A DNA stretch of 34,992 nt, taken from positions 1-34,992 of the forward strand of contig JAKDUG010000004.1 in assembly GCA_030457805.1 (NCBI GenBank). The letters run 5' to 3'. Below, piece after piece: positions 2,078 through 8,280 of the stretch (its first letter is position 1; every line of letters begins with the position of its first letter). The DNA comes from Psychroflexus sp. (GTDB taxonomy: Bacteria > Bacteroidota > Bacteroidia > Flavobacteriales > Flavobacteriaceae). A model generated the notes under the pieces. That model had not been told where the DNA came from, searched no databases, and saw nothing but the letters and a program-made list of their open reading frames with translations. A program made the translations under genes and the position numbers.

Positions 2078-3097
2078 TTATTGAGATAAAGCCCATTCAT
2101 CAATCCAGCGGCTGAGTGTTTTAACCCAATCTTCACGATCGTTGATGCACGGTATAAAAGTAAACTCTTCTCCACTATTTTCTTTGAAAATCTCATCGGC
2201 TTCCATAGCGATTTCTTCAAGTGTTTCTAAACAATCCGAAACAAATGCAGGTGTCACCACCGCAAGTTTTTTTGTGCCTTCTTGCGCCAATCGCTCTACT
2301 GTTCTGTCAGTATATGGTTTTAACCATGGGTCGAAACCAAGACGAGATTGAAAGCTTGTGCTGTAAGTGCCTTCTTTGAGTTTGAGTTTTTCTGCTACCA
2401 AACGCGTCGTTTCGAAGCATTGGTGTCTGTAGCAAAACTGATGTGCTCTTGAAGCCGTTTGACAACAACTTCCATCAATCTTACAATGACTATTTGTGAT
2501 ATCGCTTTTGCGGATATGTCGTTCGGGAATACCGTGATAACTAAAGAGCAAGTGATCGTAATCGATTTCTTCAATCTTTTCGATAATGCTTCTCGATAAA
2601 ACAGTGATGTAATCTGGATGGTTATAAAAAGGAGGAACAACGGTATAGTTGATCTTCGGGAAGAATTCATCACGTAATTGCTCTGCCAAAACAATAATTG
2701 TTTCCGTTGTCGCCATCGCGAATTGCGGATACAAAGGCACGAGTAAAACATCAGTCACACCTTGTTCATAAAGCTCTTGAAGTCCATCCTTCATCGAAGG
2801 TTCACCATAGCGCATGGCAAGTGCTATCGGCACGCTGGTCTCTTCGTTAACTTTAGATTGTAAGCGTTCGGAAAGAACGATAAGTGGGGAGCCATCGTCC
2901 CACCAAATTTTTGAGTAAGCTTTTGCGGATTGTTTAGGTCGCGTGTTTAAAATAATGCCTTTGACTAAAATTGCTCGCAACAAGTAAGGTACATCAATCA
3001 CCCGCTCATCCATCAAAAATTCACCGAGATAAGATTTGACATCCTTAGGATCTGTACTCGCTGGAGAACCTAAATTCACAAGTAAAACTCCTTTCAT
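2078..3097 (-). CDS. hemH: ferrochelatase
   Basis: MKGVLLVNLGSPAS N-terminus, FSYHGIPERH motif, TSFQSRLGFDPWLKPYTD motif; next to other hem genes. Confidence 0.96.
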   Translation of the reverse strand: MKGVLLVNLGSPASTDPKDVKSYLGEFLMDERVIDVPYLLRAILVKGIILNTRPKQSAKAYSKIWWDDGSPLIVLSERLQSKVNEETSVPIALAMRYGEPSMKDGLQELYEQGVTDVLLVPLYPQFAMATTETIIVLAEQLRDEFFPKINYTVVPPFYNHPDYITVLSRSIIEKIEEIDYDHLLFSYHGIPERHIRKSDITNSHCKIDGSCCQTASRAHQFCYRHQCFETTRLVAEKLKLKEGTYSTSFQSRLGFDPWLKPYTDRTVERLAQEGTKKLAVVTPAFVSDCLETLEEIAMEADEIFKENSGEEFTFIPCINDREDWVKTLSRWIDEWALSQ

Positions 3098-3111
3098 TTT
3101 TCAATTTTTTA

Positions 3112-3119
3112 CAAACATA
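3112..3119 (-). promoter_or_regulatory. Candidate Bacteroidetes -7 element TATGTTTG upstream of hemH
   Basis: Plus strand CAAACATA, i.e. TATGTTTG on the minus strand, matches TAnnTTTG; about 15 nt upstream of the hemH ATG. No clear -33 TTG at standard spacing. Confidence 0.4.
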
Positions 3120-3263
3120 ACGGAATTAAAATGAAGTTCTTTTTTAAAAACTTATATTTTTATCTTAACAAAAATATGATGGTGTTAATTTGTGTAAGCG
3201 ACCTCTTTTTAGTTCTAAAAACACCTGTTTTCATAATATGGTTAAAGTGTCTGAAGTTTATAA

Positions 3264-4154
3264 CTACATCAAGTTTCCAACATATTTTTTTGGCGTGGTA
3301 CCAAATTTCTTTTTAAAAGCTGTGATGAAATGACTCGCCGTGGAGTAGCCAATTGCCAAGCCGACTTCATTGACATTGTGCTGACCGTCCTCCAGAAGCT
3401 TACGTGCATATTCCAGTTTATAATTAAGGAGAAAGGAGTAAGCTGTATCACCATAAATTTCTTTAAAGCCTTCTTTCAATTTCTTTAGGCTCAAGCCCAC
3501 TTCTTCGGCAAGGTCTTTTAATTTTGGTGGTTCTATCATCCGGTGGATGATAATTTCTTTGGCTAGTTTTATTTTCTTGACATTGTCTTCATCATCAAGA
3601 AATGGACATTGCTCAATATCAACTTCCTCGGGCCTGTTGAAATACAAGCCGATCAATTCGTAAACTTTTCCTTTTAAATAGATATTTTTGATAGACGGAT
3701 GCAAGTTGAAATTTAATAATTGCGTTAAGACCACAGCCATGGCCGGAGATAATTGCCCTTCCGTATAGTATTTTTTATCGCGATTATCCTCAGTGAGGAA
3801 ATCGATATAATTTGCTTCAGCTGAAAATAAACCGTGTAATTTTTTAATAGAAAATAAAATCGAAACACCCCATGATTTCGGGTTGATGTCGATATTGATC
3901 GGAAGTTCACGCTGTGGATTGTAAAGCAGCAGGGATTTATCTTCTTCGATATTTAAGCCGTATTGTCCTTGGTTAAAATTAAACTTGATGGCTCCTTTTA
4001 AACAAAAGTGAAACTGAATATAATCAGCGCTTAAATTCCGTTTTATATGGGCTGAATCTTCGTTGTCATTCTGAATGTTGATTATGTAAATACCATTTTC
4101 GAGTTCATAAAAATGAGCTGAACTTTTAGCGTTGTTTTTTAGAGTCGTCGACAT
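3264..4154 (-). CDS. AraC family transcriptional regulator
   Basis: C-terminal double HTH (LKDLAEEVGLSLKKLKEGFKEIYGDTAYSFLLNYKLEYARKLLEDGQHNVNEVGLAIGYSTASHFITAFKKKFGTTPKKY) typical of AraC/XylS, with a distinct N-terminal sensor-like domain. Lies between hemH and hemA. Confidence 0.93.
   Translation of the reverse strand: MSTTLKNNAKSSAHFYELENGIYIINIQNDNEDSAHIKRNLSADYIQFHFCLKGAIKFNFNQGQYGLNIEEDKSLLLYNPQRELPINIDINPKSWGVSILFSIKKLHGLFSAEANYIDFLTEDNRDKKYYTEGQLSPAMAVVLTQLLNFNLHPSIKNIYLKGKVYELIGLYFNRPEEVDIEQCPFLDDEDNVKKIKLAKEIIIHRMIEPPKLKDLAEEVGLSLKKLKEGFKEIYGDTAYSFLLNYKLEYARKLLEDGQHNVNEVGLAIGYSTASHFITAFKKKFGTTPKKYVGNLM
4119..4143. repeat. Direct repeat copy 1: TGAACTTTTAGCGTT-GTTTTTTAGA, inside the 5' end of the AraC CDS
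   Basis: 15 nt identical to 4284-4298, followed by a similar T-run and AGA. Confidence 0.85.
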
Positions 4155-4173
4155 AGGAATTAAATTTTTTATT

Positions 4174-4186
4174 TAGAATGATTCTA
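4174..4186. repeat. Short palindrome TAGAAT-G-ATTCTA in the AraC/hemA intergenic region
   Basis: Perfect 6-bp arms around a single G, 20 bp upstream of the AraC start codon. Confidence 0.5.
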
Positions 4187-4283
4187 TTTAGAAACCCTGT
4201 AAAGCATGAGTTACCATGCGAAAGTAGGTCTATAAGCTGATATAAATCATTTTTTAGTCAAAAAGACTTTAAACGACAAAAAA

Positions 4284-4307
4284 TGAACTTTTAGCGTTAT
4301 TTTTAGA
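4284..4307. repeat. Direct repeat copy 2: TGAACTTTTAGCGTT-ATTTTTAGA, in the hemA promoter region
   Basis: 15 nt identical to 4119-4133, same orientation, 165 bp away; just upstream of the candidate hemA -7 element. Confidence 0.85.
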
Positions 4308-4320
4308 AATACTTCTGTTC

Positions 4321-4328
4321 TATTTTTG
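4321..4328 (+). promoter_or_regulatory. Candidate -7 element TATTTTTG for hemA
   Basis: Matches TAnnTTTG; 23 nt between the element and the hemA ATG at 4352. No obvious -33 TTG, which would fit activator dependence. Confidence 0.4.
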
Positions 4329-4351: not shown

Positions 4352-5614
4352 ATGTACAAATATAACGTATCAAAATACCAAACTTTCTTTGTTGTTGGCT
4401 TGAGTTATCAAAAAGCTGATGCAGTCACAAGAGGGAAATTCAGTTTAGGTATTGAGCAGCGTCGATCTATTTTGGAAAAAGCTGAAAGTATTGGTTTGGA
4501 TGCCATCACAGTGACATCCACTTGCAACCGAACCGAGATTTACGCTTTTGCAGATGATTCAGCTACACTCATTAATTTGTTGTGTGAATTTAGTATTGGT
4601 GACCAAGATTTGTTTCGAAAAGTCGGCTATGTCCGAGAAAATGAAGCAGCAATTTCGCACATGTTTCGTGTTGGCTGTGGCTTAGATAGCCAGATTTTGG
4701 GTGATTTTGAAATCATCAGTCAAATTAAATCTGCTTTTAGCGTTTCAAAAAAACGCAATCTGATCAATCCTTTCTTAGAGAGATTGGTTAATTCCGTGAT
4801 TCGTGCGAGCAGACGTATTAAGAACGAGACAGAAATGTCTTCGGGCGTGACTTCAGTTTCATTTGCATCGGTTCAGTACATTTTAGACCATATTGAAAAT
4901 GTCTCTGAAAAAAATATTTTACTTTTCGGAACCGGCAAAATCGGAAGGAATACATGTGAGAATCTTGTGAAGCACACGAGTAATAAGCATATCACACTCA
5001 TTAACAGAACGAAAGATAAGGCTGAAGAAATTGCAGGAAAATTTAATCTGACGGTTAAAGATTATTCAGAGCTTCAGGCTGAAATTCGTCAAACAGATAT
5101 TATGATCGTTGCCACTGGCGCGCAGCAACCAACAATTACAGAAGAAATTATTTTTCCTAAAAAGCCATTGTTGATTTTAGATTTGTCTATTCCTAAGAAT
5201 GTTTCTGAAGGTGTTGTGAAACTGGATGATGTGACGCTATTGCATTTAGATTATTTGTCACAAATGACAGATCAAACGCTGTCAAAACGCAAGAAATATA
5301 TCCCTGATGCTGAGCTTATTATTGAAGAAGAAGAAGCTGAATTTTATGAATGGTTAGATACGCGAAAATTTGCACCAACCATCAAAGCGCTCAAGGATAA
5401 ATTCAAAGATTTTCAAGCTGAGGAACTCGATTACCAAAGCAAAAAAGTGAAAAATTTTGACAAGGAGCAAGCCGAGTTTTTTAGTGACCGTTTGATTCAT
5501 AAGATCACAAGAAGTTTTGCAAGTCACTTGAGAGCCGCAAATGGCTCAACTGAAGAAAGTGTGGCGCTTCTTCAAAAAGTTTTTGAGCTTGAGGCACAAA
5601 AAAAATCTGAGTAA
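4352..5614 (+). CDS. hemA: glutamyl-tRNA reductase
   Basis: TSTCNRTEIYA active-site Cys motif, FRVGCGLDSQILGDFEIISQ, Rossmann segment LLFGTGKIGRN. Confidence 0.96.
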   Translation: MYKYNVSKYQTFFVVGLSYQKADAVTRGKFSLGIEQRRSILEKAESIGLDAITVTSTCNRTEIYAFADDSATLINLLCEFSIGDQDLFRKVGYVRENEAAISHMFRVGCGLDSQILGDFEIISQIKSAFSVSKKRNLINPFLERLVNSVIRASRRIKNETEMSSGVTSVSFASVQYILDHIENVSEKNILLFGTGKIGRNTCENLVKHTSNKHITLINRTKDKAEEIAGKFNLTVKDYSELQAEIRQTDIMIVATGAQQPTITEEIIFPKKPLLILDLSIPKNVSEGVVKLDDVTLLHLDYLSQMTDQTLSKRKKYIPDAELIIEEEEAEFYEWLDTRKFAPTIKALKDKFKDFQAEELDYQSKKVKNFDKEQAEFFSDRLIHKITRSFASHLRAANGSTEESVALLQKVFELEAQKKSE

Positions 5615-5645
5615 ATCAATTTCTTTTTATAAAAAAACAAGTCGA

Positions 5646-6566
5646 TTGGAAGCTAAACAAACGATTAAAATAGGGACGCGCGATAGCGAACTTGCTCTTT
5701 GGCAAGCCAAAAAAGTCCAAACTCTTTTAGAAAAACAAGGTTACAAAACCGAGCTTAAACCCGTAAAATCTCAAGGCGATCTCAATCTGAAACAGCCTTT
5801 ATACGAGATGGGAATTACAGGGATTTTCACAAAAACGCTTGACATTGCTTTGATTAATGGTGACATTGATATTGCTGTGCACTCTATGAAAGATGTGCCA
5901 ACGGCTTTGCCCAAGGGTGTTGTGAAAGCAGCTGTATTACCACGTGCCAATCATAAAGATATTTTGGTGCACAAAGATTTGGTTTTTCTAAAGCAAGCTG
6001 AAGGCACGATTGCTACGGGAAGTTTAAGGCGAAAAGCACAATGGCTTAACCAACATCCAAAACATCATGTTGAGAATCTAAGAGGAAACGTCATCACGCG
6101 TTTACAAAAGCTAAAAGATTCTGATTGGAATGCCGCAATTTTTGCAGCTGCAGGTCTTGAGCGCATTGAACTTACACCAGAAAATCACACAGAATTAGAC
6201 TGGATGATTTCAGCGCCAGCACAAGGTGCGATTATGACCGTTTGTATGGATATAAACAAACACAGTTTTGATGCCTTGCAAGCTTTAAATCACAAAGAAA
6301 CGGATTTAGCTGTAACGATAGAACGCGATTTTTTACGACGATTGGAGGGAGGATGTACTGCGCCAATTGGTGCGTTTGCAGAAATTAGAGCGCAAAAACT
6401 TCATTTTCAAGGCGCTTTATTTAGTTTAGATGGGAAGCAGAAATACGATATTTCAAAAACGGTTGATGTTGCCAATGCTGAGAACTTAGGAATTGAAGCT
6501 GCAGATGAACTTTTGGAGAATGATGCCGCCAAAAAATTAATGAAGGAATTAAGAGAAGTGTTGTAA
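5646..6566 (+). CDS. hemC: hydroxymethylbilane synthase (porphobilinogen deaminase)
   Basis: IKIGTRDSELALWQAKKVQ, VHSMKDVPT, RRLEGGCTAPIGAFA (cofactor Cys). The ORF opens at 5541, but codons 1-35 overlap hemA and read as out-of-frame hemA; TTG at 5646 (LEAKQTIKIGTR) is the likely start. Confidence 0.93.
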   Translation: MEAKQTIKIGTRDSELALWQAKKVQTLLEKQGYKTELKPVKSQGDLNLKQPLYEMGITGIFTKTLDIALINGDIDIAVHSMKDVPTALPKGVVKAAVLPRANHKDILVHKDLVFLKQAEGTIATGSLRRKAQWLNQHPKHHVENLRGNVITRLQKLKDSDWNAAIFAAAGLERIELTPENHTELDWMISAPAQGAIMTVCMDINKHSFDALQALNHKETDLAVTIERDFLRRLEGGCTAPIGAFAEIRAQKLHFQGALFSLDGKQKYDISKTVDVANAENLGIEAADELLENDAAKKLMKELREVL

Positions 6567-7217
6567 ATGGCTAGAATCCTTTCTACAAAATCGTTGACTG
6601 AATCACAACAGCAGCTTTTGCTAAACACAGACCATTCTCTGGTGCATTACGATGCGATCCAGATCAGTGAATTGTCTTCGAATTTTCCGCAGAAACCGTT
6701 GACAAATGCAATTGTCACAAGTCAAAATACCGCACGTATTATAATTGCACAGGCTTTTAAAATTGATCAGCTATTTTGTGTTGGAGAAAAAACGGCTAGC
6801 TTATTGTCAAGTCACGGTTATCAAGTGGTTTTAATTTGTGAATACGCAGCACAGTTGGCAAAATTGATCACTCAGAATTATGCATCAGATACATTTTCTT
6901 TATTGTGTAGTCAGCAGCGTTTGGATACAATACCTCACAGGTTTGTTGCAGAAAATATGTCTTTAACGGAATACCATTTATACGAAACATCAAGTCGTCA
7001 TCAGCATTTTCAAAATGATTTTGATGTCGTTTTGTTTTATAGCCCGAGTGGTATTCATTCATTTTTTGAAGCCAATTCAGAAATGACTTCAATTCAGGCT
7101 GTTTGTATTGGCACAACAACGGCTGAGGTGGCTAAGAGATATGTGAAAAATGTCACTTACTCGACGAAGACAAGCGTAGAAAGTGTGATAGTGAAAGCAG
7201 TACAATTACTGCGATAA
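6567..7217 (+). CDS. hemD: uroporphyrinogen-III synthase
   Basis: [35 protein letters not shown] motifs; position between hemC and hemE. Confidence 0.88.
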
Positions 7218-7245
7218 GAATAGATTTATTAAAGAGATTAATAAG

Positions 7246-8280
7246 ATGACAATGATAAAAAACGATTTATTTTTAAGAGCCTTAAAAGGCGAAACCGTTG
7301 AAAGACCACCAGTTTGGATGATGAGACAGGCAGGCCGCTATTTACCTGATTTCATGAAGATCAAAGAGAAGTATGACTTTTTTACACGTTGTCGTACACC
7401 AGAATTAGCAACCGAAATCACGGTGATGCCCATTCGTCAAATTGGAGTGGATGCGGCTATTTTATTTTGCGATATTCTTGTTGTACCGCAAGCCATGAAT
7501 ATTGAGGTAGAAATGAAACCTGGCGTTGGTCCGTGGTTGCCTAACCCAATCCGCTCGGCTGAAGATGTCAAAAATGTTGTTGTGCCAGATGTTTATGAAG
7601 AGCTCAACTACGTTTATGAGGCGATTAAAATGACAAAAAAAGAATTGGATAATGAGGTGCCTCTTATCGGTTTTGCAGGATCGCCTTGGACAATTTTTTG
7701 TTATTGTGTGCAAGGTCAGGGTTCTAAAAACTTTGATAAAGCAAAGCAGTTTTGTTTCTCAAATCCTGTTGCTGCGCATGAGTTATTGCAAAAAATTACA
7801 GATACAACCATTGCTTATTTAAAAGGGAAAGTTGAATCAGGTGTTGATGCTGTTCAGATTTTCGATTCATGGGGCGGTATGCTTTCTCCAGAAGACTATC
7901 AGCTTTTTTCTTGGAAGTACATCCAGCAAATTATCGATGCTCTTAAAGATGGCATTCCAGTGATTGCCTTCGGAAAAGGTTGTTGGTTTGCACTTGATCA
8001 GATGGCGGAATCAGGCGTTTCTGCTTTAGGAGTTGACTGGACATGTAGCCCAGAATACGCAAGAAAATTCACGAATAATTCGATTACACTTCAAGGAAAC
8101 TTTGACCCATCTCGACTTCTATCACCTATTCCAGAAATTGAAAGGATGACAGTTGAAATGATTGATAGATTTGGTAAGGACAAATACATTGCCAACCTAG
8201 GCCATGGTATCCTGCCAAACATTCCTGTTGATCATGCAAAAGCTTTTGTCAATGCTGTCAGGAATTACAAAGCAAAGTAG
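7246..8280 (+). CDS. hemE: uroporphyrinogen decarboxylase
   Basis: [16 protein letters not shown] signature and GFAGSPWTI motif; 344 aa. Confidence 0.97.

Follow-up and report, generated by a model that had tools for sequence, protein, structure and literature searches.

In the E. coli arabinose system, the ara half-sites I1 and I2 are set at a 21-bp spacing. This pair overlaps the −35 element, and the remote site O2 lies 211 bp upstream (PMC7408454). The locus described here shares with araBAD a regulator gene that is divergent from its target and, by our reading, two direct half-sites at the target promoter together with a third located far upstream on the regulator side. The predicted target here is heme synthesis. 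Heme biosynthesis genes of F. psychrophilum have been reported to rise under oxygen limitation, and the heme pathway is therefore regulated in this family (PMC9723704; its text contains neither ‘AraC’ nor ‘hemA’). In the literature searched, most of it open-access, hemA of Flavobacteriaceae had no assigned regulator, and the present AraC–hemA system was not described.

The window (the whole stretch of DNA analysed, 34,992 nucleotides from a Psychroflexus genome) carries the following genes:

2078–3097, minus strand: hemH, ferrochelatase (TIGR00109, E 5e-75), downstream of araC on the same strand.
3264–4154, minus strand: araC, an AraC-family regulator gene (296 aa) with a cupin-like N-terminal domain, Cys183-Pro184 in the linker and two HTH motifs.
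4352–5614, plus strand: hemA, glutamyl-tRNA reductase (TIGR01035, E 8e-84).
4352–8280, plus strand: the hemA-hemC-hemD-hemE run with hemA first (hemC, hemD and hemE by Pfam/NCBIfam).

The gene for the last heme enzyme, hemH, directly follows araC on the same strand (2078–4154 of the window), and the two may therefore be co-transcribed; hemA through hemE are transcribed the opposite way.

Direct reading of the sequence confirmed an earlier observation that TGAACTTTTAGCGTT is present as two exact copies (4119–4133 and 4284–4298) on the same strand, 165 bp apart. The repeat extends to 21 nt at 95% identity, and the two copies are the sole occurrences of TGAACTTTTAGCGTT in the 2.4 Mb genome. None of 3000 dinucleotide-preserving shuffles of the 252-bp region produced an exact direct repeat of 15 nt (the longest was 14). 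That count bears out the earlier argument that the match was unlikely to have arisen by chance, and a chance repeat was ruled out on this basis. The elements of the region are:

4113–4140, plus strand: site 1 (copy 1), the candidate remote half-site within araC codons 4–12, consensus GAACcTwTAGCGwYATTTTT.
4172–4187, no strand assigned: araC leader palindrome TTTAGAATGATTCTAT, conserved in the alignment (consensus TTTAGAATNATTCTAA).
4219–4226, minus strand: araC promoter −7 box TACTTTCG (family consensus TANTTTTG), a conserved column block in the alignment.
4262–4278, plus strand: site 2a, a degenerate candidate third half-site, C-N6-CGACA, which precedes 2b by exactly 21 bp in 80/80 loci.
4281–4304, plus strand: site 2b (copy 2), the candidate promoter-proximal half-site GAACTTTTAGCGTTATTTTT, with C4288, C4295 and G4296 invariant in 80/80 loci.
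4321–4328, plus strand: hemA promoter −7 box TATTTTTG (TAnnTTTG), with T, A and TTTG invariant in 80/80 loci.

The −7 consensus used for Bacteroidota promoters was taken from PMC9723704, and the TAnnTTTG-like box that had been expected just downstream of copy 2 is the one at 4321–4328. Placement of copy 1 in araC codons 4–12 holds when its A/T-rich tail is counted; site 1 proper corresponds to codons 8–12. Site 2a, the palindrome and the araC −7 box had been overlooked by the sequence-only reading. We consider it likely that the adjacent AraC-type regulator recognises the repeats as half-sites of an operator in three parts, with a loop switch acting on hemA.

A search with the regulator returned 80 loci, of which 79 were usable (one was truncated). 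Divergent hemA and araC genes were found in all 79 non-truncated loci, with aligned start-to-start distances of 184–218 nt. Sites 1 and 2b were both conserved in 79/79 usable araC–hemA loci of the Flavobacteriaceae. The outcome that the sequence-only reading had named as its refutation, loss of the repeat from relatives sharing this gene order, was thus not seen. The alignment consists of near-invariant islands in otherwise drifting DNA, namely site 1 (C4123, G4129, C4130 and G4131 invariant in 80/80 loci), the palindrome, the araC −7 box, 2a, 2b and the hemA −7 box. Site 2a appears throughout as a weaker copy of the motif, C-N6-CG-[AT][CT]-A. When the 12-nt core was scanned along each sequence, an offset of −21 scored best after 2b itself and ranked among the top three in 77 of the 80 sequences, which are related and do not amount to 80 independent tests. 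Site 2b reaches into the −33 region of the hemA promoter; counted from its C, the hemA −7 box ends 33 bp further on in 80/80 loci and in 147 of 152 distinct loci. The arrangement thus corresponds to the araBAD type, with two direct-repeat half-sites 21 bp apart beside the promoter (2a and 2b) and a third (site 1) lying over 100 bp upstream, towards the regulator.

The motif and the regulator gene were also found to co-occur. The AraC ortholog is single-copy in 190 of 201 family genomes (200 genera), and a tandem-site model (E<1e-3) matched 143 of the 190 genomes with araC versus 1 of the 11 without it (counted from tables). Of the genomes with araC but weak matches, 20 were checked; the divergent pair is present in all 20, and a looser scan placed both sites at 158–172 bp in 13 of them. 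Each of 27 Psychroflexus genomes, where the locus was present and complete, yielded two strong single-site matches, both at the locus, and no consistent third target of the motif was found in scans of these 27 genomes. A global regulon was rejected on this evidence. A strong single site in G121 (L290), lacking both 2a and a −7 box, was left out of the counts.

The araC product matches Pfam HTH_18 with an E-value of 1e-19 (HTH_18 and HTH_AraC are both above cut-off), and PDB profile HMM matches to AraC, MarA and Rob identify an AraC-type C-terminal double helix-turn-helix. In the AlphaFold model (AF2; pLDDT 84), residues 12–134 form a beta barrel, as expected of an N-terminal cupin-like sensing and dimerisation domain; this domain had no match in the Pfam search. 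Foldseek comparison with the model returned the full-length AraC-type proteins ToxT and Rns, together with BgaR and the AraC dimerisation domain. The closest genus is Psychroflexus, with the P. halocasei AraC at 88%. The protein contains one invariant cysteine, in the context CPFL or CPYV, that adjoins the low-confidence linker of the model. This Cys-Pro dipeptide is invariant in 31/31 aligned orthologs, is present also in L311–L316, and is absent from the AraC paralogs checked (27–38% identity), which we take to be PchR-like. The invariant Cys-Pro suggests heme sensing by the regulator, a CP dipeptide alone being no proof of heme binding. Matching of operator cores to HTH residues by eye yielded no simple code. 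In L296 (G443) the AraC ortholog carries one in-frame TAA (a recent pseudogene or a sequencing error), and the hemA promoter there retains its sites.

Class-wide, an ortholog at E≤1e-35 was present in 31 of 395 genomes, not always beside hemA. In families f3 and f54 (and more weakly f75) it is divergent from HmuY-like proteins: PF14064 (Pfam) exceeds its cut-off in L303, L305, L314 and L316, falls short of it in L310 and was not detected by the Pfam search in the neighbour at L315; in family f16 it is divergent from TonB receptors. In the promoters of L303, L305, L314 and L316 two motif cores are spaced by 21 bp, and 33 bp separate the second core from a −7-like box. Distant families show altered cores that appear jointly at sites 1 and 2b. 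In f39 the regulator neighbours hemA; both genomes have AGAGGTA as the core of 2b, and L306 has it at site 1 as well. In f16 GGGTA or a close variant occupies both sites. A link to heme had been drawn earlier from gene order; it is now supported as well by the HmuY and TonB-receptor neighbours, several of which share the promoter geometry, and by the invariant Cys-Pro.

Within the Flavobacteriaceae, TonB receptor–HmuY operons were rejected as general targets, 28 of the 30 upstream regions checked being without a tandem site. The two exceptions are G041 (L288:1916-5224), with a strong tandem site upstream of such an operon, and G213 (L387), where the operon carries a weaker one.

The palindrome lies between remote site 1 and the promoter sites (inside the putative loop); in most loci about 46 bp separate it from the araC −7 box. 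Genomes of the genus normally match it exactly just once, at araC, and it has degenerated in G154, the araC gene there being relocated. A reading of 4172–4187 as a Fur/PerR box found no support: the exact motif occurs essentially only at araC in the genus and the window's own genome contains 37 sites at two mismatches versus 33 for the control, arguing against a general box of this kind. One near-copy in that genome, TTAGAATGATTCAAA (L143:1501-1515, G000:C7), is located about 20 bp upstream of a cupin and OsmC-like gene pair.

The distance between sites 1 and 2b is mostly 165–169 bp, with a peak at 166–167 among the 152 distinct loci (167 bp in G066, read directly from the sequence) and a range of 122–247 bp across the Flavobacteriaceae. 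Outlying distances, read from the sequence, are 136, 145, 146, 146, 147, 147, 154, 155, 156, 157, 158 and 198 bp. Tested against uniform spacing, concentration at a 10.5-bp phase was V=0.49 (p=0.002) by a statistic that ignores kinship; collapsing shared values gave p of about 0.07, and adding distant lineages gave V=0.38 (p=0.007), kinship again being ignored. Off-phase distances are 122, 122, 172 (G192) and 247 bp (G028) in the family, and 120 (f54), 142 and 150 bp (f3 HmuY loci) in distant families. These values are suggestive of a tendency for the spacing to shift by whole helical turns, with exceptions. The 247-bp locus (L292) has a divergent araC–hemA pair, and its AraC is only 39% identical.

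We infer that AraC binds candidate sites 1, 2a and 2b and that the loop, the activated and repressed states and the heme signal follow a scheme of the araBAD kind. In one state, a predicted AraC dimer would occupy 2a and 2b and activate hemA. In the other, the dimer would bridge site 1 and a promoter site, forming a DNA loop in which hemA, and possibly araC, would be repressed. The signal could, more tentatively, be heme or heme sufficiency, perceived through the invariant Cys-Pro linker or the cupin-like pocket. A direct-repeat operator by itself shows neither looping nor its sign. In G325 and G154, two species of another Flavobacteriaceae genus, hemA and araC are separated by two other genes. 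The araC gene, still intact, lies about 1.8 kb off and has a new start, and 2a, 2b and site 1 have all stayed on the hemA side. Despite the relocation, site 1 is 167 bp from 2b in both species, and therefore appears to serve hemA. Its sequence is 18/20 identical between them, versus 25–55% for adjacent in-register 20-nt blocks. In G154 the old araC start codon is gone and site 1 is non-coding, so that it appears to have been kept neither for coding nor only for shutting off araC.

These observations weigh against an arrangement without a loop, in which AraC would activate hemA from 2a and 2b as from any ordinary site, and site 1 would be a separate roadblock for araC autorepression. Site 1 is situated some 75–100 nt downstream of the predicted araC transcription start, where bound protein could block elongation, and the exceptions to helical phase fit such an arrangement; we nevertheless consider it unlikely, since site 1 and the 167-bp distance persist in G325 and G154 where araC is no longer directly downstream, and distances elsewhere are tightly kept or shifted mostly by helical turns. 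Of the two roles that had been proposed for copy 1, looping on hemA is accordingly the one favoured, and autorepression alone is disfavoured. Looping between site 1 and the promoter site is, on these sequence comparisons, probable.

There is also little reason to believe that copy 1 is conserved as coding sequence for the regulator N-terminus, its match to copy 2 being an old duplication or fortuitous. Most species do have copy 1 within coding sequence, and the residues K-N-x-A-x-S are common there, but araC codons 6–12 show ratios of observed to expected synonymous codon identity of 1.5–2.8 versus a gene median of 1.09 (serine columns being inflated by the two serine codon blocks). The Ala9 codon is identical in 83% versus 29% expected, the largest z in the gene. 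Together with the non-coding site 1 of G154, the codon analysis contradicts coding conservation, and the shuffles and a core shared by site 1 and 2b in about 150 loci likewise stand against a chance match. That a different, unlinked regulator binds the sites, with araC merely a neighbour and itself a target, seems to us very unlikely. The assignment of AraC to the sites comes from sequence, and in G041 a tandem site was found where no araC ortholog was detected; G041, however, is only an 84%-complete MAG, and the motif co-occurs with araC, orthologs beside other target genes show the same 21/33 bp geometry, 21-bp direct repeats are typical of AraC dimers and no other consistent genomic target was found. 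The operator reading as originally proposed for AraC is thus strengthened by the fixed 21 and 33 bp geometry, the co-occurrence, the synonymous constraint and the relocation in G325 and G154.

The three-part AraC operator with a loop on hemA, if correct, would add a further instance of the loop plan of araBAD, from another phylum and on an essential pathway, with about 150 natural loci for comparison. It would also make the AraC ortholog one candidate hemA regulator, nearly universal in the Flavobacteriaceae and accompanied by exact base-pair predictions. Where the promoter geometry is unchanged and the target has switched from heme synthesis to heme uptake, it would offer a clear case of regulatory rewiring. 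It is possible, though we put it forward only tentatively, that these proteins form an undescribed AraC subfamily spanning several Bacteroidota families, sensing heme through Cys-Pro and acting through an araBAD-like loop with the remote operator in its own coding sequence, that sets heme supply by way of hemA in some lineages and HmuY/TonB-receptor uptake in others.

PchR-like AraC regulators located beside TonB-dependent receptors share with the present protein the AraC family, iron- or heme-related neighbours and a similar helix region before the HTH. The PchR-like paralogs checked differ in lacking the invariant Cys-Pro, and the present orthologs make up a single group, present in one copy and linked to hemA in Flavobacteriaceae. 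Regulators that sense heme through Cys-Pro, such as Irr (PMC4700492), have the CP dipeptide in common with the present protein, here invariant at the edge of a low-confidence linker; they belong to a different protein family, and heme sensing in the present case is putative. Relative to E. coli araBAD, the target is heme synthesis, the promoter is of the Bacteroidota TAnnTTTG type, the remote site is about 167 bp away and within the regulator coding sequence, and the regulator is not close in sequence to E. coli AraC outside the HTH. The kind of system, a probable loop on the araBAD plan, is a known one; its target is new, and so, probably, is its signal.
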